In this document: positions 1-17,675 of the stretch, in pieces
Layout: every line of letters begins with the position of its first letter
Position numbering within the stretch: position 1 is the stretch's first letter
Origin: a virus
IMG/VR virus record: IMGVR_UViG_3300006352_000017
Location: 1 to 21,690 of that record
Strand: one strand, 5' to 3'
DNA length: 21,690 nt
Made by a program: the position numbers and the translations under genes
Notes under the pieces: generated by a model
The model's input: the letters and a program-made list of their open reading frames with translations, nothing else
What the model was told of the DNA's origin: nothing
The model's database searches: none

Positions 1-1449
1 ATCGTTTACAAATCCTTGACGATATTCTTCTGCGCCTTTGAATACATTCATCAAGTCGCCTTGATCATTATTTGTATATTGCGATCCAAGCATCTTCTCG
101 CTAGCTTCCATTCGACCTGCTCTATTTGCTGCAAGAAGTTCATTCATTGCTGTAATTTGAGCCGCATCATCAGAAGCATTACCTACGGTGCTTAAATTTG
201 ATTGTGCGTTAATTGCGGCTTGCTCACCACCTTGTTGCTCAACCCAATCTAAGTCGGCAACGATTTGATCCCACGATTTACCAGTAGAGGAGTCACTCAT
301 GTTGTCCAATAATGCTTGGCTATAATAGTCTAATCCGGGAGTACCGATCTGACGGCCAAGATTCTCCACATATTGATTGTTTAATTGAGATTCTATATAA
401 GCGGGGTTTATGCTATAACCACCGTTTGGTGCCGTAAAGGTTTCCCCTGTAACGGGGTTTGTATGCTCAACCATGGCCATGGTATTCATTGACCCTTCAG
501 GCGGTGCGATCATCCAATCAGGAAGTTGATTTGTACGCGGCATTACTGGTGGCATTACTGGTGGCATTACTGGCGGTACTACTGGTGGCATTACTGGCGG
601 TACTACTGGTGGCATTACTGGCGGTACTACTGGCGGCATTACTGGTGGCATTACTGGTGGCATTACTGGTGGCATTACTGGTGGCATTACTGGTGGTACT
701 ACTGGTGGCATTACTGGTGGCATTACTGGTGGCATTACTGGTGGCATTACTGGCGGCATTACTTCATCAACTGGAAGTTTATTATCGTAATCGACAATAT
801 CAAAAGCAGGATTTGATGGAGAAAGAGGCCCAGCGCCGTAGGCTGGTGCGCCTAAGAAATTTCCGAAGTAATTTCCAGACTGATTCATCAGGTACTGGTT
901 GCCCGTATTATTGATACCTCGTTGGAACAACTCTGTGTCTGCGTTTCTAATGAACGCATTACGCTCAGCATCGTTTACCTGTCGATTTTCGTCATCGTAA
1001 ACTCTTTGTCTTTCTTCAGGACTAGGTCCATAGCCAATCGCCATTGGATACATTTTGTTGTTATTCTCATTCTCTCGACCCAAATACTTCTCATACATTT
1101 CATTTACAGTATTAGGAGCTACGCGCTTAGAGCCTGCGAATTGCTTATTGGCGTACATGGGAGTGCCTGCAAGACGTTGATCGTACTGAGCAGAGTAGTT
1201 GTCATAAGCGGCTCTATCGTTTACATTATTAAGATCATATTTAGATTTTAGGTCATCATAATTATTTTTTCTCGTCTTATAATTAGCTATTTGATCGTCT
1301 TCAGATATTAACTCACCCGCAGCATTTACTTTTTCTTTGTCGTAGTTAAAATCTTCAAGAACTCCAGGATTTTTAACCCCTGCATATCCAAGCTTAGCCG
1401 CCGAACCTACGCCGTACTGTTTCTTTAATTTATTTAGATTAAAGCCCAT
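1..1449 (-). CDS. Large virion/ejection-type protein with VMPP repeats, cut by window edge (at least 483 aa)
   Basis: Open frame of 483 codons from ATG at 1449 to the window edge with no stop, so the C-terminus is missing. The start MGFNLNKLKKQYGVG has AGGAG 6 nt upstream and lies 12 nt after the stop of the 855-aa gene. Residues 1-229 are hydrophilic, rich in Asn, Asp and Tyr, with no signal peptide or membrane segment. Residues 230-303 are 19 tetrapeptides of V-(M/V)-P-P, probably a stiff polyproline-like linker. Residues 304-483 are again hydrophilic (for example HTNPVTGETF and NELLAANRAGRMEA). I do not recognise a family. Its position after two probable ejection proteins suggests an internal or ejected virion protein, as in the gp14-gp16 block of T7. 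That is inference; a tail-associated or host-wall role is possible. Existence of the gene is near certain, function is weak. Confidence 0.85.
   Translation of the reverse strand, partial: MGFNLNKLKKQYGVGSAAKLGYAGVKNPGVLEDFNYDKEKVNAAGELISEDDQIANYKTRKNNYDDLKSKYDLNNVNDRAAYDNYSAQYDQRLAGTPMYANKQFAGSKRVAPNTVNEMYEKYLGRENENNNKMYPMAIGYGPSPEERQRVYDDENRQVNDAERNAFIRNADTELFQRGINNTGNQYLMNQSGNYFGNFLGAPAYGAGPLSPSNPAFDIVDYDNKLPVDEVMPPVMPPVMPPVMPPVMPPVVPPVMPPVMPPVMPPVMPPVMPPVVPPVMPPVVPPVMPPVVPPVMPPVMPPVMPRTNQLPDWMIAPPEGSMNTMAMVEHTNPVTGETFTAPNGGYSINPAYIESQLNNQYVENLGRQIGTPGLDYYSQALLDNMSDSSTGKSWDQIVADLDWVEQQGGEQAAINAQSNLSTVGNASDDAAQITAMNELLAANRAGRMEASEKMLGSQYTNNDQGDLMNVFKGAEEYRQGFVND
541..762 (-). repeat. 12-bp in-frame tandem repeat, 18.5 copies, encoding (V-M/V-P-P)n
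   Basis: On the plus strand the unit is (c/t)a(t/c)tactgg(t/c)gg. It runs without interruption as 18 full 12-mers and a final 6-mer. Four units carry GTA (Val) in place of ATG (Met), and proline codons alternate CCA/CCG, so copies differ at only a few positions. The period is a multiple of three, so length changes would keep the frame. The same property opens long meaningless frames (ALLVALLV, HYWWHYWW) on the opposite strand. Confidence 0.97.
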
Positions 1450-1461
1450 GTCAAACTCCTA

Positions 1462-4029
1462 TTATCCTGGATTCAAGCCTTTATACGTTGCAAAGCCAGA
1501 GGCCAATTGCGAAAGAGGTGAATTATTGTAAGTTGCGCCAGTCGTGCTGCCAGATGTTGTTGTTCTTCGATCTGTAATTGGAGCCATTCCTCGAACTTGT
1601 GTACTGAGCCAATCCATCTGCTGCTGTGGGTAAAGCTGCTGGTTCATGAATTCTCTCTCTGCAGCTGACAATTCTGTTTGGAGCTGCATTTGCTCTGATT
1701 TTCCTGCGGCTTCAAGAGCGGCGAGATCTTTGTAATTAGCATCTTGAGACGTTGTTGCCATATTAGCCATACTAGTCAATGCGCCCATCTGGCGCTGCAA
1801 GTCTTGTGCGCTAGCATTCTGAACCTGTGATGCTGCATTTAAGCCAAATTGCTGCTGACTTTGACCAGCTCCAGTACGTGCCTGAGCTAAGTTTCCAAGC
1901 TGAGACATCTGCTGTCCTGTTAGCTGTCCAGTCGTTGCGCCCAAGCTAGCAAGCTGCGAAGCCTGCTGCCCAGTTAGCTGGCCCATAGTCTGGCCCAGCT
2001 GAGCCTGACGATTTGCGTCTTGACCCATCATCTGACCCGCTGTCGAGGCTGCTTGCATCTGACGCGCTGCATCAGCATTGGTCATTTGACCCGCTATGCC
2101 TGCTGCTTGGAATTGTCGCGCCGCATCTTGACCTGTAAGCTGCCCAGCCATTTGCCCAAGCTGCACTTGTCGAGAAGCGTCAGCGTTAGTTAGAGCACCT
2201 AGTTGACTAGCAACTTGAGCTTGTCTTGCTGCGTCAGCATTAGTCAAAGCGCCTAGTTGACTAGCAGCTTGAAGCTTCCTTGACGCATCAGCGTTAGTTA
2301 GAGCGCCTAGTTGACTAGCAGCTTGAAGCTTCCTTGACGCATCAGCGTTAGTTAGAGCGCCTAGTTGACTAGCAACTTGAAGCTTCCTTGCTGCATCCTG
2401 TCCAGTAAGCTGCCCCATCTGGCTAGCAACCTGTGCCTGCCTTGCTGCATCGGCATTAGTGAGTTGACCTGCTGTAGAGGCACCCTGCATTTCTCTGGCA
2501 GCGTCTGCATTTGTAAGTTGGCCCATTGTTGATGCGAGCTGAGCTTGTCGAGCAGCGTCTGCATTTGTAAGTTGACCCGCCTGAGAGCCCAGTTGAGCGT
2601 ATTGACCAGCACCCTGTAATGTGCGACCCAAGTCTGCGCCTGAGATACTGCCAACCGTGCCAGCAAGACTAGCTTGTCGTGCCTTGTCAGCTGCTGAAGC
2701 CTGCATGGCTTGAGCGTAACCTTGTTGCATCATTGGAGCTTGCTGTCTTAGAACAGACTCTTGCGTGTCTCGTAATGCTCTAGATCCAAACTCACCCATG
2801 TTTCTGCTACCAAACTGGCCTGCCTTAATGAAAGCATCTGAAACGCTAGGTAGTAAGTTTTCAGTTAAATTGCGCGAACCCTGTTGAGCTAATGCATCCA
2901 TAACATTCGTCTGATACGGATTCATATACTGGCCAATATCAGACACAGAAGACTGAGACGCCTGCTGTAAATAAGGATTAGCCGCATTAAGAGCTTTGTC
3001 AGCTAATGCTTGGGCAGTAGTGCTCTGAGATTGATTCATGTACGGATTAGCAGCGTTCATACCGCTAGCTGCTGCCGCGTTCTGAATATATGGATTAGCA
3101 GCGTTTACGCCGCTTGCTGATGTTCCTCTCTGCAGATAAGGATTAGCCGCGCTCATACCGCTTGCGCCAGCGGCTTGCTGAAGCAAAGGATTGGCAACAT
3201 TAAAAGCATTTGCTGCTGCTGCTTGTTGTAACATAGGATTGGCTGCGTTCAACCCGCTTGCTGCTGCTGCTTGTTGCAGCATAGGATTAGCTGCGTTAAA
3301 CCCGCTTGCCGATGCTGCTTGTTGCAGCATAGGATTAGCTGCGTTAAACCCGCTTGCCGATGCTGCTTGTTGCAGCATAGGATTAGCTGCGTTAAACCCG
3401 CTTGCTGCGTTTGCCGTGCCCATGTAACCGCTAGCGGCATCCATAGCATTAGCAGATGCCCCAGCTTGTAGATAAGGATTCGCCGCATCAAATGAACTTG
3501 CTGAAGAGCCAGCTTGCAAATAGGGGTTTGCCGCGTCAGATGCGCTCATGCCTGCGGCTTGAGTTAGGTAAGGAGACGCCGACCCAACAATATTATTTGC
3601 ATTGGTCTGAGCCTGATTTAGCAAAGGCTGAGCAGAGCCGAGGATGTTTAAGTTTCCGGCTTGAGTAAAAAGATTTTGCCCAGCGTTTAGATTCTGACCA
3701 GCCAGATCGTCTCTTAAATAATTAGCTTGAGCAGTGCCCAACGCTCCAGCAGTTCCTGCTGTAGACATGCCTTCCATGCCAGTTTGAGCTTTACCGAAAT
3801 TTTCTTTATAAGCTCCTTGTGCGTTCTGAATACCAGTGTAGGCTTGCTGTTGCAGTGGAGATAATTCAGCAACAGTAGGCAATGCATACGCCTCATAAGG
3901 TTTATTAGCTATGTTTGTAGCCCAATTTACTTGGTTGTAAATCGCATCCTGCATCCACTCTGGCGTTTCACTGGTACTGGCGCTATAAGATGTTGCACTT
4001 TGAGGGCTTCCTTCAAAAATACTACCCAT
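1462..4029 (-). CDS. 855-aa repeat-rich Ala/Gln/Asn virion protein, probable internal/ejection protein
   Basis: Starts ATG at 4029 with GGAG 7 nt upstream and overlaps the preceding gene by 8 nt. Layout: N-terminal segment with PEWMQDAIYNQ and LSPLQQQAY (about 20-150); 11 tandem 16-residue units with core AANP(M/Y)LQ (165-340); a conserved-looking block, QYMNPY...RNLTENLLP...AGQFGSR (about 366-450); 13 tandem 18-residue units with core LTNADA(A/S)R (485-718); then a Gln-rich C-terminus with AEREFMNQQLYPQQQMDWL (about 789-807). No cysteine, signal peptide or membrane segment is seen. The NPY/AGQFGSR block recalls proteins common in environmental podovirus contigs (from memory). The composition predicts long helices, fitting a protein packed in the capsid and ejected with DNA, but a tail-shaft or fibre role cannot be excluded. 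Confidence 0.85.
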   Translation of the reverse strand: MGSIFEGSPQSATSYSASTSETPEWMQDAIYNQVNWATNIANKPYEAYALPTVAELSPLQQQAYTGIQNAQGAYKENFGKAQTGMEGMSTAGTAGALGTAQANYLRDDLAGQNLNAGQNLFTQAGNLNILGSAQPLLNQAQTNANNIVGSASPYLTQAAGMSASDAANPYLQAGSSASSFDAANPYLQAGASANAMDAASGYMGTANAASGFNAANPMLQQAASASGFNAANPMLQQAASASGFNAANPMLQQAAAASGLNAANPMLQQAAAANAFNVANPLLQQAAGASGMSAANPYLQRGTSASGVNAANPYIQNAAAASGMNAANPYMNQSQSTTAQALADKALNAANPYLQQASQSSVSDIGQYMNPYQTNVMDALAQQGSRNLTENLLPSVSDAFIKAGQFGSRNMGEFGSRALRDTQESVLRQQAPMMQQGYAQAMQASAADKARQASLAGTVGSISGADLGRTLQGAGQYAQLGSQAGQLTNADAARQAQLASTMGQLTNADAAREMQGASTAGQLTNADAARQAQVASQMGQLTGQDAARKLQVASQLGALTNADASRKLQAASQLGALTNADASRKLQAASQLGALTNADAARQAQVASQLGALTNADASRQVQLGQMAGQLTGQDAARQFQAAGIAGQMTNADAARQMQAASTAGQMMGQDANRQAQLGQTMGQLTGQQASQLASLGATTGQLTGQQMSQLGNLAQARTGAGQSQQQFGLNAASQVQNASAQDLQRQMGALTSMANMATTSQDANYKDLAALEAAGKSEQMQLQTELSAAEREFMNQQLYPQQQMDWLSTQVRGMAPITDRRTTTSGSTTGATYNNSPLSQLASGFATYKGLNPG
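1876..2577 (-). repeat. 54-bp tandem repeat, 13 units (18-aa helical repeat)
   Basis: Encodes residues 485-718 of the 855-aa protein as 13 consecutive 18-mers with consensus G-(Q/A)-L-T-N-A-D-A-(A/S)-R-x-x-Q-x-A-S-x-(L/M). Two 54-bp units, at 2282-2335 and 2336-2389, differ by one base, pointing to recent duplication; outer units are diverged, and the last two lose the NADAAR core. Eighteen residues equal five alpha-helical turns, so each unit would present the same face of a continuous helix. Confidence 0.93.
3010..3537 (-). repeat. 48-bp tandem repeat, 11 units (16-aa AANPxLQ repeat)
   Basis: Encodes residues 165-340 of the 855-aa protein. Units are exactly 16 residues with core N/D-A-A-N-P-(M/Y)-(L/I/M)-Q. 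A degenerate copy precedes the array (149-164) and one follows it (about 348-363). At DNA level, 3281-3328 and 3329-3376 are identical over 48 bp and the next copy matches for 29 bp more, so the centre of the array has expanded recently while its flanks are old. Confidence 0.93.
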
Positions 4030-5983
4030 TTGATGCTCCTTTTAAATACTGTAATGGGGATTTAGCGTTAGGACTAAACTTTCCTTTAGCTAAGACTTTG
4101 CCTTTGTGAGATCGGATATTTTCTCTCATTGTATCAAGTGCCGCTGCACCTGCTTTGCTAGAGCCATCGCCCAGCATAGCAACAGTCTCTGCATCAACTA
4201 CAAACTCGCCATCGGACAAATAAGCTGGTATTTCATCAGATCTACCTGTACCTCCACCTCTTACATAGCGAGATGCTTGGCTTAACGGACCGCCTTGATT
4301 CATACGCATCGGACCGCCTCGATAGTAACCGTTAAAACCATCGCCCGTAGACTGCATATTATACTGTCCAGAAGTCATATTGTTAAAATTCCCCGCCATA
4401 TACTCCGTCAAAGACATATTAGCTCGGTTGGCGTCAGCCCGAATGGCATCCCAGTCCCAAGACTGAAGAGGTCTATTAAAGTATTCTTTTTGCTGTGGAG
4501 ACATTTCCTCAATAGCCATACTAACATCTTCAGGAGCTTCTATGGCTCCAGCGGCCAAAATTCCTAAGCCGGCGGTCCTTAATTTATCTTCTTTCAAGTA
4601 GTCCATAGCGTTGGCAAGGAATCCGGGCTCAGGCAAAGCTGGGCTTTTGCCGGCAGTTCCTACCCTGAAGGCTGGGCTTGGGATTTGTGGATCGCTTATT
4701 ATTCCAGCCATAAAGTCTTCTCCAAGAGGAGACTGGGCGCTCGAAGCAGCAGCAAATGTGTCTGGCGTATTAGGAATGCCGTTTGTGTAAGCTTGACCGT
4801 CATAGTAGCCAGTGATTTTGTCTCCACTAATCTTGTTGACTAAAGGACCGACGCTGTCATTGCCTTGCATTCTAAACTCGAATCCTACGTCTTTATTGCC
4901 GCTGTAATCTTTACGGCCAGCAAATGTGTTTTGCTCGTCTTTTAATCCACTAACAACAGACTCAGCTGGCTTAGGACCAGACAACAAAGACTGTCCTGCA
5001 GTAAATAGACCTGCTGTCGCTCCACCAACAACAGCTTCTTGAGGCTTGTAGCCTGCAGTGAGCATGTTACCAGTTTGATCAACTCCAGCTTGTATTGCGC
5101 CTTGGAAAGCGTTTGGCGCTCCTGTTCCAGAGCCTGTTCCTGCAAAGTTTTTGAGAAGCTGTCCACCTGCGCCTTGTAACGCACCTTGAGCAAAACCCTC
5201 TCCTGAAATAGCTCCTGCTGCACCGCCGACTAAACCGCTTCCCAGCGTTGCTATTGCTCCTGGTGATGTTAATCCTAAACCAAGACCTTTATTAACAGCT
5301 TGACCTGCTGCACCACCAACGCCTCCAGAAATACCACCCATTACTGCGCCACGTAAAGGGTCTCCACCAGTCAATGCTGCTGTGCCTGCGCCAAGAACTG
5401 CGTTGCCTGCAATTGCCGAACCCATAGAGCTCATAAAGCCCATAGCCTCACCAATACCCTTCGCTAGCGGACCACCAAAAACCGTCAGAGCAACAGGAAG
5501 AACCGTCTTGAATATCTTTTTTAAACTTTTATATTCTACTAATCCAGTGTTTGGGTTTGTCGTGCCTTGGCCACCCATCCTTCGTAACACTTCAGCTTCA
5601 CGAGGATTAATGTGGGCCAGCATGCTGTCGCCACCTTGTCCTTGGTTAGCTAAATGTCTTCCAGCTACCATTAAACCGCCACGGGCAAAACCTTGTGCCG
5701 TACCTCGATCTTGTAGTCCGTAAAGTGCAATCAGAATAGATATAATAAATTCAGCATTAAATTCAGCAGGAGCATCGCCCTCATCTATTAGGCCGTCAGC
5801 AATTGCAGCCTGCACCATTTCGGCGTACATAGCTGGATTCTCAAGAGCCGCTTCAAGCATCTCAATCGCTTCGTCTAAGTCTTCTGGGACCATAGCTGTG
5901 CGAGACAGACGCTCTTCTATGACATCAATGCCTTGACTGAACTCTGGACTCTGACTAGCGAACTCTATAATTTGTTCCCGCAT
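4022..5983 (-). CDS. 653-aa glycine-rich, membrane-prone virion protein, probable ejection protein
   Basis: ATG at 5983 is preceded by AGGAG, which forms the last codons of the GNAT-like gene. The N-terminal 90 residues are acidic and helical. Residues 118-150 hold a motif, GDSMLAHINPREAEVLRRMGG then NPNTGL, that I recall from environmental phage proteins. Residues 155-330 are Gly/Ala-rich and hydrophobic (runs such as GGAAGAISGEG), the type of sequence able to insert in membranes. Residues 581-610 contain DEIPAYLSDGEFVVDAETV, a motif seen near the C-terminus of various phage tail and internal virion proteins, followed by a basic tail. Lying between the tail hub genes and another large virion gene, it probably helps move DNA across the cell envelope. 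No lysozyme or transglycosylase motif is visible. Family name uncertain. Confidence 0.8.
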   Translation of the reverse strand: MREQIIEFASQSPEFSQGIDVIEERLSRTAMVPEDLDEAIEMLEAALENPAMYAEMVQAAIADGLIDEGDAPAEFNAEFIISILIALYGLQDRGTAQGFARGGLMVAGRHLANQGQGGDSMLAHINPREAEVLRRMGGQGTTNPNTGLVEYKSLKKIFKTVLPVALTVFGGPLAKGIGEAMGFMSSMGSAIAGNAVLGAGTAALTGGDPLRGAVMGGISGGVGGAAGQAVNKGLGLGLTSPGAIATLGSGLVGGAAGAISGEGFAQGALQGAGGQLLKNFAGTGSGTGAPNAFQGAIQAGVDQTGNMLTAGYKPQEAVVGGATAGLFTAGQSLLSGPKPAESVVSGLKDEQNTFAGRKDYSGNKDVGFEFRMQGNDSVGPLVNKISGDKITGYYDGQAYTNGIPNTPDTFAAASSAQSPLGEDFMAGIISDPQIPSPAFRVGTAGKSPALPEPGFLANAMDYLKEDKLRTAGLGILAAGAIEAPEDVSMAIEEMSPQQKEYFNRPLQSWDWDAIRADANRANMSLTEYMAGNFNNMTSGQYNMQSTGDGFNGYYRGGPMRMNQGGPLSQASRYVRGGGTGRSDEIPAYLSDGEFVVDAETVAMLGDGSSKAGAAALDTMRENIRSHKGKVLAKGKFSPNAKSPLQYLKGASNG

Positions 5984-5987
5984 TTAT

Positions 5988-6422
5988 TTAACTCCTACAC
6001 CAGTCGTGTTTTCTGTATTCATTATTAAGAAAGCCATAAATAAACATGTCTTCATCGTCATCGTATGCTTTTCTCATTGTCCCTTCTTTTAGAAATCCCA
6101 AATGCTCGCAGAATTTCTGAGAATCTGTATTACTGGCAGCAACCAATGCTGTGGTCCTAACTGCTTTGAGTTCATCAAAAACCATTTTAAATAAGCCGTT
6201 AAACATTTTAATAGTCGCCTTTGGCGTCCATTGACAAGTGGCGGCAATGTTTATGTCTATATTTCTTTTAGTAAAATTTGTTAGCAAAATAACACACGTA
6301 AATTCGCCAGCATCATCAACAGCCGATAACGCTCTAAAAACACTAGGAGCGCTCTTAATTCCTAAGTATTTTCTTGCCCATTTTTCTGCCATTTCTTCGT
6401 CTTGATAGCCAATATATTTCAT
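5988..6422 (-). CDS. GNAT-fold acetyltransferase-like protein in T7 gp13 position
   Basis: Start chosen at ATG 6422 (MKYIGYQ), which overlaps the preceding stop as ATGA and gives 144 aa. An upstream ATG at 6452 would add ten residues but lacks a clear ribosome site. The C-terminal half reads as a GNAT domain: AASNTDSQKFCEHLGFLKEG (97-114, the loop, helix and LGF turn), then TMRKAY and MFIYGFLNNEYR. The usual acetyl-CoA pyrophosphate-binding motif (Q/R-x-x-G-x-G/A) is absent where expected; that stretch is QWTPKATIKMFNG (64-76). In T7 a small protein, gp13, sits between the nozzle gene and the ejection genes, as here. So it may be a virion or morphogenesis factor rather than an active enzyme. 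A true acetyltransferase acting on host or virion proteins remains possible. Confidence 0.7.
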   Translation of the reverse strand: MKYIGYQDEEMAEKWARKYLGIKSAPSVFRALSAVDDAGEFTCVILLTNFTKRNIDINIAATCQWTPKATIKMFNGLFKMVFDELKAVRTTALVAASNTDSQKFCEHLGFLKEGTMRKAYDDDEDMFIYGFLNNEYRKHDWCRS

Positions 6423-6658
6423 AATGTTGTTTGAACAAACCTCTCTGCCCATTCTCGCCAGTCCGTAATAGCGTAACTATACGGATCTGGAAAGTCTTCC
6501 ACTAAGTTACTAGATCGCATGTACTGCATAGCCCAATCTTGCCACTTATTCACATCATCTAGTGGCTGGTAAACGCCAAAAGCATCAAAATCAGTGATTA
6601 GGCAGTCAGCCCAGTCCTTGAGACCAATACCAACTGGGAGCGTAACACTAAGACTCAT
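6419..6658 (-). CDS. Small tryptophan-rich conserved phage protein (79 aa), function unknown
   Basis: ATG at 6658 overlaps the preceding stop as ATGA, and the gene ends in another ATGA overlap with the GNAT-like gene, so it is embedded in a translationally coupled set. The protein is acidic with five Trp. Its C-terminus ITDWREWAERFVQTTL resembles a D-x-W-x-x-W-A-E-R-(F/L) ending I recall from small proteins beside tail hub genes of environmental phages. No membrane segment or catalytic motif. A small virion or assembly protein is the best guess. Confidence 0.75.
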   Translation of the reverse strand: MSLSVTLPVGIGLKDWADCLITDFDAFGVYQPLDDVNKWQDWAMQYMRSSNLVEDFPDPYSYAITDWREWAERFVQTTL

Positions 6659-8487
6659 CCTAGATCCGTACCATCACCGCTGTCAAAGTGCGCGATGATC
6701 TGGCCCATTTGATAATCTCCGTACAGCTCATTACTTTCAAACTTAACTCTAAGCTCTCTTCTCTGCTCTTTTAGCATAACTATCTGCTGATAAGGTTCAG
6801 AGGCCGACTCAGGAAACTCAAATGTTGTACTGACCACTTCTGGCGCTCTTGCGTTAGCTCTTCCCGTTATATTAACAGTCATCGGACCGCTTTGCACAAA
6901 GTCCGGCTCAATCGTTGTGCAGCGTAAATATCTATTATTTCCAGTAACTAGGGTAGATAAGTCAGCTGTCTCAAAGTTAGACTTAATGGGTCTTACTGAT
7001 GGACCATCATACTCATCAGACTTAAACTCATGACGCCAAACTTTATAGCCGCCGCCATCATTTTTAACGCCTGTGAGAACTGGGGCAGCAAATGAGTTGT
7101 TAAAGTGTCCAGCAGACCTTCCATCGTTAGGGAGCTCAGTATCATACCAAGTCTGCTCTCGCACGTTATACACGACAGCGTGGGTGCATTCTGTCGCTGT
7201 TCCGCGAGGATAACACCACCAAATCTCGCCGTATTTTGGCACTTGAAAACAGAATGTTTTGCTTTGCTCGTTGACGTTAATGCCGTCAAAAAAGTAATTA
7301 AGATTCATGCTGTTTGGTACTTCGCGCACTACACCGTTAAACATGTAGAATCTATCTACGCCAGCCCAGTAAAATACTCCATCGTAATCTACCACGCAGA
7401 ACTGAGACATAATTGAAGTGCCAGTCGCAATAATGTCAAACTGGAATACTGTTGATCCGCCTGTAAAAGTAGCCCTTAATACCGCGTCAAACGCCCAAAA
7501 TATTCCTGCAGGGGCCGTTCCAGATCCCGCTCTCATTGGTAGACCCTTGATGATCTTTTGCCCCCAGACGCGAGCTAGGCCGCTACCTGAACCAGTTAAA
7601 TCCGTTGGCTCTCCAGGAACTGACCAGCCAATAATGCCATCAGTACCATAATAAAATAAGTAAGGATGAAGACTAACAATTCCGCCAGTCACATTAGCGT
7701 TTGGAGGAAGTGGTATGCTTTTCAAATCGCCAGTTCCTAAGACTTCTCCAAAGAATATTTGACCATCCTGATCATTGCACACACAAGTACCATTTGGTGC
7801 CACTGAGGCTATTAAATAGTTTTGATTAGTAGATGAGGCATATTGGACATCAAACATCCAATAGTTGAAAGGATTTGCTAGCAGAGGATCAGATCCGTAG
7901 TCGAATTTCACTAAAGTAGACGTAAGCGTGGTTAATGTGTTGGTAATGATAAATCCATTAACCTGATCACCTGTGGTAACTGAAGTAATGGTGATTACCG
8001 CGCCTACTGCCGCAGCAGTGTAATTTGGCGTTGAGTTAAATGCAGTGATATTGGAGGCAACATCTGTTGCTGTTTGATTTAATGTACTGTTAAAGGCCAC
8101 AGCTCCAGACATAATGTCAACGCCATTGACAGCAATCATACTTACTGATCCGCTAGCGCCAGCCAAAGTTACAGTTCCATATGCGCCTACAGCAACAGGT
8201 GTTCTGTCGGTAATAACTGAACTGTTACTTGTAGCGTCTAGCGTAAATCGCTCTAATTTATTTGCGCTGCCCGAATGACAGTAGACGTATAGCATCTGCG
8301 TAAACGTAGAAAATCCACGGCTTATTTCTTGTAATAATTTCTGAGTAGTTTTGTATCCACCCATTTTGCGAGGAAGCCCTCTTTGCCAGCGCACCCACTG
8401 ACCATCCGTATACGCATCGCCTTCAAACTTGGTTCCATCTCTTTTGATTCCTGGAGATGATTTTAATACAGCTGTTTGAATAGGCAT
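6655..8487 (-). CDS. P22 gp10-like tail nozzle / packaged-DNA stabilisation protein
   Basis: Start set at ATG 8487 (MPIQTAVLKSSPG), one nt after the previous stop, with GGAGG about 11 nt upstream; a TTG at 8517 in the same frame would only overlap the upstream gene. The 610-aa product has a beta-propeller-like pattern with repeated F-x-V-x-Y-D-G segments (FCVVDYDGVFYWAGVDRFYM, HAVVYNVREQTWY) and a C-terminal strand region, RELRVKFESNELYGDYQMGQ, typical of gp10-family proteins that cap the tail hub of P22-type podoviruses. Residues about 103-190 are an extra Ser/Thr/Ala-rich beta domain (VNGVDIMSGAVAFN, then GDQVNGFIITNT) not expected in the propeller core. It follows adaptor and fibre genes and precedes the ejection genes, consistent with tail-tip assembly. 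Annotation rests on pattern and order, not on alignment. Confidence 0.65.
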   Translation of the reverse strand: MPIQTAVLKSSPGIKRDGTKFEGDAYTDGQWVRWQRGLPRKMGGYKTTQKLLQEISRGFSTFTQMLYVYCHSGSANKLERFTLDATSNSSVITDRTPVAVGAYGTVTLAGASGSVSMIAVNGVDIMSGAVAFNSTLNQTATDVASNITAFNSTPNYTAAAVGAVITITSVTTGDQVNGFIITNTLTTLTSTLVKFDYGSDPLLANPFNYWMFDVQYASSTNQNYLIASVAPNGTCVCNDQDGQIFFGEVLGTGDLKSIPLPPNANVTGGIVSLHPYLFYYGTDGIIGWSVPGEPTDLTGSGSGLARVWGQKIIKGLPMRAGSGTAPAGIFWAFDAVLRATFTGGSTVFQFDIIATGTSIMSQFCVVDYDGVFYWAGVDRFYMFNGVVREVPNSMNLNYFFDGINVNEQSKTFCFQVPKYGEIWWCYPRGTATECTHAVVYNVREQTWYDTELPNDGRSAGHFNNSFAAPVLTGVKNDGGGYKVWRHEFKSDEYDGPSVRPIKSNFETADLSTLVTGNNRYLRCTTIEPDFVQSGPMTVNITGRANARAPEVVSTTFEFPESASEPYQQIVMLKEQRRELRVKFESNELYGDYQMGQIIAHFDSGDGTDLG

Positions 8488-8488
8488 A

Positions 8489-9673
8489 TTAGTAAGTGCC
8501 TCCGTCTGCTGGTCCAATCGCGGTCCATGCAGTCCGTTGATTTACAGACTCAAATATAGCGATACCTGTAGATTTACCGCCCAAATTTATTAATGCAGCT
8601 CCTGCGGAGGTGGCTCCAGTACCGCCATTTGCGATAGAAATAGGTACGCCAATAGTTGCAGTGTCAGCATCTAAGATCACACTACCATCGCAATAAAATA
8701 TACCGCGCTCATTGGTGCTTAAAACTACACCCGTGGTTCCGCTAACTTTTACTGTGAATGTATGTGACCCAGTGGTGCGATTATCAATCCAATACTGCTG
8801 TACGGTTGCGGGTATAATAATGTTTCTAGCGCCTGTTAGCGCTCCAGTGAATCGATAAGCAACTCGATTTAGCTGGGCTCCAGACAACACAAAGTTGCCC
8901 GATCCGGGCACATCAATTACTGTGTAATCAAATGCGAAAGTCGCTGATTTACCAAATCCTATAGTGTAAAAATTAGTACCATCAGAAGCGACTATTGCTG
9001 ACTCTCCAGGCTGAAAAGGAAGCGGAGACGTACCATCAATCTGAACACTGCCTGTTGGCGTTACCGCAACTTGGCCTGATCCTGAATTACGCAGATAGAG
9101 AAACCAATTATCGCCAACAATAGTAGGGTCTGGTAGTGTCAAAACACCTCCAGCTCCAGTCCAGTTGTACATCCTTGCTCGATCATTATCGCCAGCAGTA
9201 TAGTTCGAGTTAAATGCTGTAATAGGTACTGACTGAGATAAAACAGTGCCAACAGCAACAATGCCTGTGCCAGCCAATGCCGAGGCGTTCGCGCTCGATG
9301 TGGTGGCTCCATACTGCAGGATTTGCCAAGTGCCGTTTACGCTAGTATTACTAGTTAAGTAAACTTGCCAAATTTGTCCCGCAGCGATTGTACCGACTTG
9401 AACACCGCCAGCGTTTAAAACCGTAAATGTATGGCTACCTTTATTGTTAAATAATATCGTATTACCCGTACCACTTTTAGTGGCATCAGGTAGGGTAATG
9501 TTAAAGTTTATCGCAGATGGGGTAACATCCATGATTCTAGTGGCTAAATTGACGTTTGTAGACGTTTCTTCTGGCCAGCTCAGCACAATGCTGGCAGTTA
9601 AAGCAACAGAGCTATAGCTTATTTCACTTGGGTATATATTTGCACCGCCAAAAACATCGGTATAACTTGGCAT
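8489..9673 (-). CDS. 394-aa beta-repeat tail/fibre protein
   Basis: ATG at 9673 overlaps the previous stop (TAATG) with AGGAG about 9 nt upstream. Three related beta modules occur at residues 48-120, 170-242 and 262-335. Each has a (T/I)-(L/I)-P-(D/A) strand, a turn with N-x-x-(T/S)-G-S or similar, a T-V/V-T strand and a final N-G-T-W or D-G-T-N-F turn. The C-terminus has PISIANGGTGATSAGAALIN, the glycine-rich collar common in phage tail fibres, and ends AWTAIGPADGGTY. It sits between an adaptor-like gene and the nozzle gene, so it is probably attached to the tail hub as a short fibre or spike. Receptor specificity cannot be read from sequence. Confidence 0.75.
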   Translation of the reverse strand: MPSYTDVFGGANIYPSEISYSSVALTASIVLSWPEETSTNVNLATRIMDVTPSAINFNITLPDATKSGTGNTILFNNKGSHTFTVLNAGGVQVGTIAAGQIWQVYLTSNTSVNGTWQILQYGATTSSANASALAGTGIVAVGTVLSQSVPITAFNSNYTAGDNDRARMYNWTGAGGVLTLPDPTIVGDNWFLYLRNSGSGQVAVTPTGSVQIDGTSPLPFQPGESAIVASDGTNFYTIGFGKSATFAFDYTVIDVPGSGNFVLSGAQLNRVAYRFTGALTGARNIIIPATVQQYWIDNRTTGSHTFTVKVSGTTGVVLSTNERGIFYCDGSVILDADTATIGVPISIANGGTGATSAGAALINLGGKSTGIAIFESVNQRTAWTAIGPADGGTY

Positions 9674-10305
9674 TACGCTTCACTCCTATTTGCTGATCTG
9701 TCCATAATCTTACTTAGATCCTCGCCGTTCAATGCCTGCGCTGCACGATCATACATTCCAGTCCACATAGCAACTCGTTCGTCATTTTTTAAAAATGGAG
9801 CTGCTTCCAGAAGTGCGGCATATAATAGAACATCAGGCGCATATTCTGTCAGCCAATTACTTTGGAAATCATCTCCCAAAAGAGCTGGCTGCTCGTAATA
9901 AAGTATTTCCATTGTGCTTGCAGCATTAGGAGTCGGAACTATTAGCCAATGCTGATAGTCGTAATCTGCATAAAATTCAGGCGTGGCAGTCTCAGATTCG
10001 TTTGTCCAATAGTTGCGGCAGTATTCGTAAGATCGCGCAAATATAGACTTTCCAGAAACATTCATCGATATAGTGTCGCGCCATCTGTCAGGCTTTAAAT
10101 ACGTTGATACTCCAATCGCCAGCGGTAGATTAACTGCCCGGATGAATCCTTCTATTTTAAGCTCACGCGCAATACGCCTCTCTCCCAAGGTAATTAAACG
10201 TGGGAGTTGATCAAACACTATTTGATCGCTATCCTGAGTAAACCCTCGCTCTAAATATCTGCGAAGGTCCACCAACAGGCTGTCGTAGGTCATCGTGTAG
10301 CTCAT
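9673..10305 (-). CDS. Head-tail adaptor-like protein (SU10-type adaptor family)
   Basis: 210 aa; ATG at 10305 follows the holin stop by one nt. The N-terminus MTYDSLLVDLRRYLERGF and the helix LPRLITLGERRIARELKIEGF match the all-helical opening of phage adaptor proteins, and a middle beta part includes YKPDRWRDT-like sequence (actually YLKPDRWRDT) and WLIVPTPNAAS. The C-terminal helices (APDVLLYAALLEAAPFLKND) complete the fold. Such proteins form the dodecameric ring that joins portal to tail. The window also contains a gp4-like protein (16665-17675) with a comparable opening and P-x-P-N-A-A-S motif, so the two may form stacked rings or be paralogues. Assignment is by remembered family pattern. 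Confidence 0.6.
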   Translation of the reverse strand: MSYTMTYDSLLVDLRRYLERGFTQDSDQIVFDQLPRLITLGERRIARELKIEGFIRAVNLPLAIGVSTYLKPDRWRDTISMNVSGKSIFARSYEYCRNYWTNESETATPEFYADYDYQHWLIVPTPNAASTMEILYYEQPALLGDDFQSNWLTEYAPDVLLYAALLEAAPFLKNDERVAMWTGMYDRAAQALNGEDLSKIMDRSANRSEA

Positions 10306-16362: not shown

Positions 16363-16668
16363 TTAATTCATCTCCAGATATTTATTGCCATCTTCAGTGA
16401 CAATAAACTCATCACCAGCTTCTTGAATAACGCCTGATGGGCGAGTATCTATGTTCTTATCAGGCCGATTAAACGGCAAAACAATTTGATCTGGGCGTCT
16501 AGGAGGTAATAAATAAGGATCTAATCTATCCTTATCAGCCTCACACACCATTAATCCCGGAAAGTTAGGATCAGGCGAAAGTTCTGATAATAGAAATTTA
16601 ATAGAGCATCTAGCACATATCGCAATACCAAATGTAGGCTGACCCGTTGGGTCCAGATAAATGCTCAC
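16363..16668 (-). CDS. 101-aa three-cysteine protein, degenerate zinc-finger-like
   Basis: Uses a GTG start at 16668 that overlaps the upstream stop as GTGA and has no close Shine-Dalgarno, implying translational coupling to the adaptor gene. C-A-R-C at 18-21 and V-C at 41-42 sit around SPDPNFPGL; the place where a fourth cysteine would complete C-x-x-C is Asp45. LDPYLLPPRRPDQI (49-62) follows. Similar proteins with four cysteines and the D-P-Y-x-L-P segment occur near phage tail genes (from memory). It may bind a metal weakly or not at all. A small tail-assembly or structural role is likely. Confidence 0.75.
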   Translation of the reverse strand: MSIYLDPTGQPTFGIAICARCSIKFLLSELSPDPNFPGLMVCEADKDRLDPYLLPPRRPDQIVLPFNRPDKNIDTRPSGVIQEAGDEFIVTEDGNKYLEMN

Positions 16669-17675
16669 GCTGTGTAAACCCCTATTCCTGGATTGATTTG
16701 AATTGCAGATCCATCATTATCGCCATCCCAAGCTCGTTGCATACTCATTGTTGCTTTAGCATCGAGCATTGGCATAAGTTGAGCATCTGCAGAGGGTGTT
16801 TCAGCGCATACCCTAGCCGCTAACCCATTGATTATAGCCTCTAACCACCGATTAGGTATATCAATCTCTTGCTGTAAGTTGTCGGTATCCATTATTTGGC
16901 GGTGACGCCAGAGCACTAATTGAAACTTTTCAGACGCAGCGTTAGGCGCTGGCCATAAATTAACAACTGGCTGAGGAATATCACGCTGGTAGTAGAAGCT
17001 ACTGGGGCGTCCAGCAAATACTAAATTGCTTTGGTTTACATAATTATCTCTACTCAATAAGCCAAGAGGAATGGCTTGAGGCATATTTCCTAACGTAATT
17101 CGGGAGGAAGAGATAGTAGAAGCACCATCAGTTGGTACGATTCTAAAGTATTGCTTGGCTAAAGCGCCATTAATTTGAGTCCAAGTAATATTACCAGCAA
17201 CCGCTGTCGCATTGGTTGATAAATCAAGACTAGTCGAAGTTCCTACCGTAGTCCAAGCAGCATTGTCTGAACTAGTCTGAAAATTGACTGGAATAGCGTT
17301 CGCAGACCATTTAATTCCAATGAAATTGACTATTGTGGAGGTAGTAAAATTAACTAAATAAGAGGTATTTGTGGATGTTACAGTGCCACTTAGCTCTTGA
17401 AGTACGTTTAAATTTAGGTTTAAAACGTCAATTGTGCCCTTTGGAAGCTTGACAATTTGATTATTTTCGTAAAGAGGCAGTATTTGCTGCTCTATGCACC
17501 AAGATGGTGTCCGTATATTGGCCAGCTCATCGAGCATGAATGTCAGAGAATCAAGTGCATATTCTTGCATTTCTGAAGTTATGGCCTGAGCAGGCAGGCG
17601 ACACCTGCGGAAAGCGTGGTCTACGACTTTCAGCGCATTAAATGTTTTAACCCCAATGTTTCCCGAATAAGCCAT
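16665..17675 (-). CDS. P22 gp4-like head-tail adaptor with inserted discoidin-like domain
   Basis: 336 aa from ATG 17675, with only a weak GGA site. The helical opening (FNALKVVDHAFRRCRLPAQA, then EYALDSLTFMLDELANIRTP) and the second half (GLLSRDNYVNQ, NLWPAPNAASEKFQLVLWRH, IDIPNRWLEAIINGLAARVC) match adaptor/tail accessory proteins that dock below the portal. Residues about 97-198 interrupt this fold with a beta domain: VNFIGIKW, FQTSSDNAAWTTVG, NITWTQI and AKQYFRIVPTDG are the strand signatures of discoidin/F5-8C-like domains, which often bind carbohydrates. The gene overlaps the next by GTGA. The assembly function and the insert call are both by pattern; AlphaFold-type modelling would settle them. 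Confidence 0.65.
   Translation of the reverse strand: MAYSGNIGVKTFNALKVVDHAFRRCRLPAQAITSEMQEYALDSLTFMLDELANIRTPSWCIEQQILPLYENNQIVKLPKGTIDVLNLNLNVLQELSGTVTSTNTSYLVNFTTSTIVNFIGIKWSANAIPVNFQTSSDNAAWTTVGTSTSLDLSTNATAVAGNITWTQINGALAKQYFRIVPTDGASTISSSRITLGNMPQAIPLGLLSRDNYVNQSNLVFAGRPSSFYYQRDIPQPVVNLWPAPNAASEKFQLVLWRHRQIMDTDNLQQEIDIPNRWLEAIINGLAARVCAETPSADAQLMPMLDAKATMSMQRAWDGDNDGSAIQINPGIGVYTA

Follow-up and report, generated by a model that had tools for sequence, protein, structure and literature searches.

The locus and its two repeat arrays

The stretch of viral DNA analyzed here (the window, 21,690 nucleotides in full) carries a cassette of minus-strand genes in which the gene for an 855-residue protein with two tandem arrays lies between two others (Table 1). 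The source virus is a podovirus (short tail), judging from the matches of its nozzle protein and SU10-type adaptor, and its major capsid protein is 80% identical to the counterpart in Caulobacter phage RW, a laboratory phage of C. vibrioides CB15. Besides the full adaptor, a second protein (16665–17675) has partial SU10-adaptor similarity (6.5e-7). A GNAT acetyltransferase is encoded upstream of the cassette (5988–6452), and in OspP_OH and Octadecabacter DB2 the gene for the related protein likewise has an acetyltransferase gene a short way upstream.

Read on the minus strand, positions 3010 to 3537 are exactly residues 165 to 340 of the 855-residue open reading frame, or 11 units of 16 residues, and the second array, of 18-residue units, occupies about residues 487 to 720. 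TRF placed both far above chance, with 48-bp arrays at 3131–3405 (score 300) and 3044–3165 (score 139) and a 54-bp array at 2180–2397 (score 336). The original prediction had described this eleven-unit array, its 16-residue period and the 18-residue period of the other array, and a repeat-block-repeat design with a non-repeated block between the arrays, all of which we upheld. Its unit motif, AANPxLQ, proved strict in only 7 of the 11 units; the other four read AASGYMG, VANPLLQ, AANPYIQ, and AANPYMN, and an additional copy of this type follows after 23 residues, at residue 349. Two adjacent central 48-bp units are identical, as had been stated, but the next unit matches over its first 33 bp (46/48 overall) and not over 29. 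The 16- and 18-residue consensus units of the window have no significant sequence similarity to each other (shuffle p = 0.94); homology between the two arrays was likewise not found in relatives, among which one member with 18-residue units in both arrays reached p = 0.04 in the shuffle test.

Table 1. Features of the repeat-protein gene and its neighbors in the window
Feature	Position	Strand	Basis or remark
Downstream cassette gene, cut by the window end (483 residues); VMPP array at 539–763	1..1449	(-)	
Gene for the putative hairpin protein, 855 aa	1462..4029	(-)	138 distinct complete relatives in core set
Conserved C-terminal base region, residues 743–855, including stop	1462..1803	(-)	Alignments; boundary approximate
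C-arm, residues 455–742, 18-residue units	1804..2667	(-)	54-bp repeats; helix prediction
Most recent C-arm duplication, units 5.5–7.8 from tip, opposite the N-arm one	2248..2373	(-)	Exact lag-54 run of 73 bp
Conserved non-repeated block, residues 355–454, putative hairpin tip	2668..2967	(-)	Most conserved stretch; anchor in all relatives
N-arm, residues 115–354, 16-residue units counted outward from the block	2968..3687	(-)	Clear part, 3010–3537
Most recent N-arm duplication, units 6.1–9.1 from tip	3265..3408	(-)	Exact lag-48 run of 93 bp
Conserved N-terminal base region, residues 1–100	3730..4029	(-)	Conserved in alignments; boundary approximate
Upstream cassette gene, 653 aa, C-terminal motif common to tape-measure proteins	4022..5983	(-)	Syntenic in RW and MW202545
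Short-tail nozzle protein	6655..8517	(-)	PDB 9nwi, 1.2e-13; 8zkk/8zkm nozzle, about 9e-7
SU10-type adaptor	9673..10305	(-)	Pfam PF24175, 6.4e-28; PDB 7z47, 1.9e-7

Unit number and unit length are locked between the arms

Relatives were found with the non-repeated block (residues 355 to 480) as the query, among viral contigs and four Caulobacter phages; a scan of genome contigs for relatives returned no match. Arm lengths were measured as the distances between one fixed anchor position within the block and the two termini, in complete and distinct proteins with identical ones counted once, and a tree built from the block served for the independent contrasts. The lengths on the two sides of the anchor were correlated with r = 0.994 in the first 59 distinct proteins, with steps of 16 and 18 residues, and again with r = 0.994 and a residual standard deviation of 10 aa in the core set of 138 distinct complete proteins, which range from 285 to 1464 aa. 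Phylogenetically independent contrasts gave r = 0.9975 (87 contrasts) and r = 0.984 (137 contrasts), with a slope of 1.09 to 1.10, near the ratio 18/16 = 1.125. One more 16-aa unit before the block accompanies one more 18-aa unit after it, and most close pairs of unlike length differ by equal numbers of units on both sides, for example, L051/L052 (1/1), L004/L008 (3/3), and L001/L003 (14/14). The original prediction had proposed that one and the same unit number in all homologues would speak against it; the numbers vary widely, but in pairs.

Several proteins that we considered as breaks of this lock were rejected as such. In L044, L048, and L053, about 24 extra residues sit in the N-terminal region, outside the array; L075, L085, and L087 had been called from an upstream start; and L118, which has an added C-terminal domain, was excluded from the core set. 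The L118 protein (3692–5953 of its contig) belongs to the family without carrying arrays and is extended at its C terminus by about 430 aa. Arrays are absent from distant families (L123, L127, L184 to L194, and others).

Unit length, determined for each arm by autocorrelation, is also matched. Most arrays have N-arm/C-arm units of 16/18 residues, while L108 has 23/25 (16/18 with 7 added in both arms), L043, L067, L087, and L139 have 39/43 (16+23/18+25), and L031 to L042, L235, and L256 have 18/18. Given the 18/18 arrays, the two-residue deficit of the N-arm unit is not universal. Higher-order periods match as well, at 32/36 in L001 and 64/72 in L233, with L070 (32 versus 54) as the exception.

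It is very improbable that common descent, the repeated sampling of one lineage, or repeat misassembly has produced the lock as an artefact. Many of the loci are near-identical and short-read assembly can collapse repeat copies, but identical proteins were counted once, the independent contrasts retain an r of 0.98 or more, separate lineages have expanded with unlike unit lengths, and misassembly would not alter two unlike arrays by the same amount and at corresponding places.

Register and covariation of opposing units

With units numbered from the block outward, the DNA identity between neighbors in the window, L001, and L003 is highest at the same unit number in the two arrays. Identity profiles taken from the tip were best correlated at lag 0, with r of 0.80 to 0.94 in the window and L003 and of 0.54 to 0.88 in L001. 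Exact duplications lie opposite each other in the window (Table 1) and cover units 5.8 to 9.5 of the N-arm and 6.3 to 10.2 of the C-arm in L001.

Opposing units also covary in side-chain size at lag 0. Where the residue after the N-arm proline is Met or Leu, the opposite residue at C-arm position 11 is Met or Leu in 22 of 22 cases; where it is Tyr or Phe, position 11 holds a small, Ala-type residue in 24 of 30 (post-proline residue versus C-arm residue 11 at lag 0, Fisher 1.6e-9; circular-shift P = 0.0002). Of seven independent sets, six had their maximum of summed mutual information at lag 0 in the antiparallel orientation, and in these six it exceeded the parallel control; the z values are inflated by permutations that remove autocorrelation and are informative for the lag and not for the size of the effect. 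Parallel pairing of the arms was rejected, since the control peaks lay below the antiparallel ones in those six of seven sets. In L108, the 23/25 array, there was no antiparallel lag-0 peak in mutual information, though its number and unit-length lock hold. The covariation signal is shared duplication history plus physical contact, both contributing, and either demands coupled arms.

Unit number, unit length, and duplication position are coupled between the arms. The original prediction had called the second array unrelated to the first and its amplification recent and independent; the amplification is recent and the arrays share no sequence similarity, but independence does not survive the locking of copy number, unit length, and duplication position. 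That two unstructured low-complexity arrays amplified independently for variable length is hardly credible: both contain recent DNA-identical copies and neither resembles the other, yet they are locked in copy number, unit length, higher-order period, and register, and correcting for phylogeny leaves the lock in place.

Exchange between close genomes

The predicted length variation is real and can be seen between genomes that are otherwise nearly the same. L004 and the window share 98.1% identity over a 4.8-kb flank (window positions 3656 to 8453) and 93% over 752 to 2073, but only about 81% over 2596 to 3098, the block region, and L004 has 3 unit pairs versus 13 in the window. L008, which is 95% identical to the window over 4.86 kb, has 6. 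This pattern of identity fits replacement of the whole hairpin, presumably through recombination at its base.

A proposed hairpin rod of paired units

Physical pairing of the two arms as a helical hairpin, to which the lock points and which the covariation of opposing units supports, is very likely. The conserved N- and C-terminal regions would form a base from which the 16-residue array leads outward as the N-arm; the chain would turn in the block (residues 355 to 454), which would be the tip, and fold back on itself, antiparallel, as the returning 18-residue array, so that each 16-aa unit of the N-arm would stand opposite one 18-aa unit of the C-arm. Most simply, the C-arm would be a continuous alpha-helix. 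A continuous helix is favored because 18, 25, and 43 residues make whole numbers of turns (5, 7, and 12 turns at 3.57 to 3.60 residues per turn). The N-arm is probably helical with one proline break per unit, and such a break, more extended than helix, would allow it to cover the same distance with two residues fewer (16 versus 18, 23 versus 25, 39 versus 43). A unit gained in one arm would need a partner in the other, and the rod would lengthen in paired steps of about 2.7 nm, as estimated from the helix rise, while base and tip remained constant. Exchange of whole hairpins could then spread new lengths among phages.

Structure prediction gave no confident hairpin with AlphaFold2 for either L004 (pLDDT 59, pTM 0.30) or the window protein (pLDDT 47, pTM 0.24). 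The only well-scored part was in the C-arm of the window protein, predicted as a single helix over residues 492 to 640 with pLDDT of about 82 to 85 at residues 550 to 620. The helical moment, taken as a measure of a regular hydrophobic stripe on the helices, had p of 0.01 to 0.11 in six of seven N-arms and of 0.03 to 0.62 in C-arms. A Foldseek search with the low-confidence L004 model yielded matches to phage proteins alone, all with low TM-scores, and among solved structures no chain matched the family profile at E ≤ 1.

The arms might instead not be in contact within one chain, either because the N-arm of one subunit pairs with the C-arm of the next or because both follow a common scaffold of variable length. 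Equal unit numbers alone are compatible with these arrangements, and covariation is blind to the difference between intra- and intermolecular contacts. We regard them as unlikely: a hairpin gives the antiparallel register from the block outward without further assumptions, and the search for a scaffold of scaling length among the cassette genes found none; the downstream partner is near 495 to 498 aa in most relatives, across 0 to 23 units. Length matching with the cassette neighbors was rejected on this steady length and on the null result in 17 loci, a small set in which upstream and downstream open reading frames gave no significant correlation.

The downstream gene does hold an array of its own, the VMPP/VVPP array with its 12-bp period, which encodes a proline-rich run of 76 aa. 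The original prediction had grouped it with the other two. The array is real, but the relatives checked lack it, even L004 with its 98%-identical flank elsewhere, so that it is private to the window in this comparison, and it shows no tracking of unit number; we rejected it as a member of the paired system, and it is an ordinary proline-rich expansion. The plus-strand frames at 459–914 and 526–816, opposite this array, are repeat by-products and not likely genes.

Genome context and probable role in ejection

The cassette is syntenic with those of RW, MW202545, and phiM5, where it lies beside internal virion and SLT proteins, and an SLT transglycosylase protein is encoded two genes downstream of the family gene in RW and MW202545. 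Profile phrog_4287, a DNA ejection protein, matches the short relatives L055 (7e-14), L029 (413 aa, 7e-10), and RW gp65 (333 aa, 1.6e-9) over most of their length and phiM5_27 of Sinorhizobium phage phiM5 at 6.5e-91; phiM5_27 is annotated as detected in virions (particle proteome), with internal virion proteins coming next. The 855-aa protein of the window itself had no significant match among PHROG profiles. Synteny, the PHROG 4287 matches, and the transglycosylase support the ejection-type cassette of the original prediction, and the putative hairpin protein more likely than not belongs to the ejection (internal virion) set of the podovirus.

The same paired hairpin might alternatively be an external trimeric tail fiber, spike, or needle that reaches a receptor. 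Peptidase_S74 chaperone domains are typical of trimeric fibers and not of ejected proteins, and such a domain lies at the C terminus of the phiM5, OspP_OH, and DB2 relatives, which are annotated as tailspike or tail fiber. Neighbors of the low-confidence model in BFVD include intramolecular-chaperone and tail-fiber proteins, and lengths of up to about 70 nm would suit a fiber. Because some phrog_4287 relatives end in an S74 chaperone, a fiber role keeps some probability. We nevertheless consider it unlikely, as a domain search found no Peptidase_S74 in the window protein, in its short relative L055, or in L118, the cassette adjoins internal virion proteins and a transglycosylase, separate tail-fiber genes lie upstream, and the PHROG annotation is DNA ejection.

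Overall, the best explanation, and a likely one, is an antiparallel, largely helical hairpin rod of paired units that belongs to a podovirus ejection cassette. Its variable reach would lengthen a trans-envelope conduit or a stalk of it. Lengths range over about 27 units, which in full extension would come to some 70 nm, more than a periplasm spans, and that rod length is tuned to the host envelope is speculative. We tentatively propose, as somewhat less likely than not, a new extensible protein ruler in which two non-homologous arrays form the strands of a modular hairpin and coevolve one unit at a time, and in which the phage would reset the length of its genome-delivery rod by whole-hairpin swaps (about 27 paired steps, from 285 to 1464 aa), perhaps matching host envelope geometry.

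Significance and comparison with known systems

Tandem repeats in phage proteins are usually taken as loose length variation, and here they follow a strict pairing rule. Such a rule between two dissimilar arrays exposes architecture from sequence alone, where structure prediction failed. The natural series of lengths, which runs from 3 to 23 unit pairs with an almost constant tip, offers a probe of the relation between host envelope and the reach of a rod for delivery or attachment. It also poses the puzzle of how insertions come about in pairs, since single ones should break the register. No description of such an array lock was found in the literature that was searched.

Close to the family by profile is PHROG 4287 (for example, phiM5 gp27), which short relatives of the window protein match. 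phiM5_27 carries an S74 domain, whereas the window protein has none, and paired arrays are not described for PHROG 4287. The tail needle gp26 family of P22 provides a podovirus rod, a helical coiled coil whose length differs between phages. However, gp26 is a parallel trimeric coiled coil, whereas the window protein would be a hairpin of two different arrays, and we found no similarity between them. Podovirus ejectosome proteins form trans-envelope channels (PMC8954989, PMC10925440). The ejectosomes of T7 (gp14/gp15/gp16) and DEV (gp72/gp73) and the P22 ejection proteins have in common with the window cassette a late gene position, downstream of the nozzle gene, and a member that bears a transglycosylase; they differ in that paired-unit length change is absent from the literature passages searched, and the family profile has no solved-chain match.

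Another likeness, in architecture only and with no sequence relation claimed, is to the antiparallel coiled-coil arms of SMC and Rad50 proteins. There the chain turns at a hinge that forms the tip and its N-terminal and C-terminal arms run back along each other, which requires the two to be equally long. In SMC proteins the coiled-coil arms span 47 to 49 nm from head to hinge (PMC5344682, PMC5526789). Matching arm lengths with coordinated change, as in SMC/Rad50-type arms, are found in the window family. Unlike SMC and Rad50 arms, those of the window family are tandem arrays, their unit number varies between genomes of one species, and proline breaks occur in one arm only.
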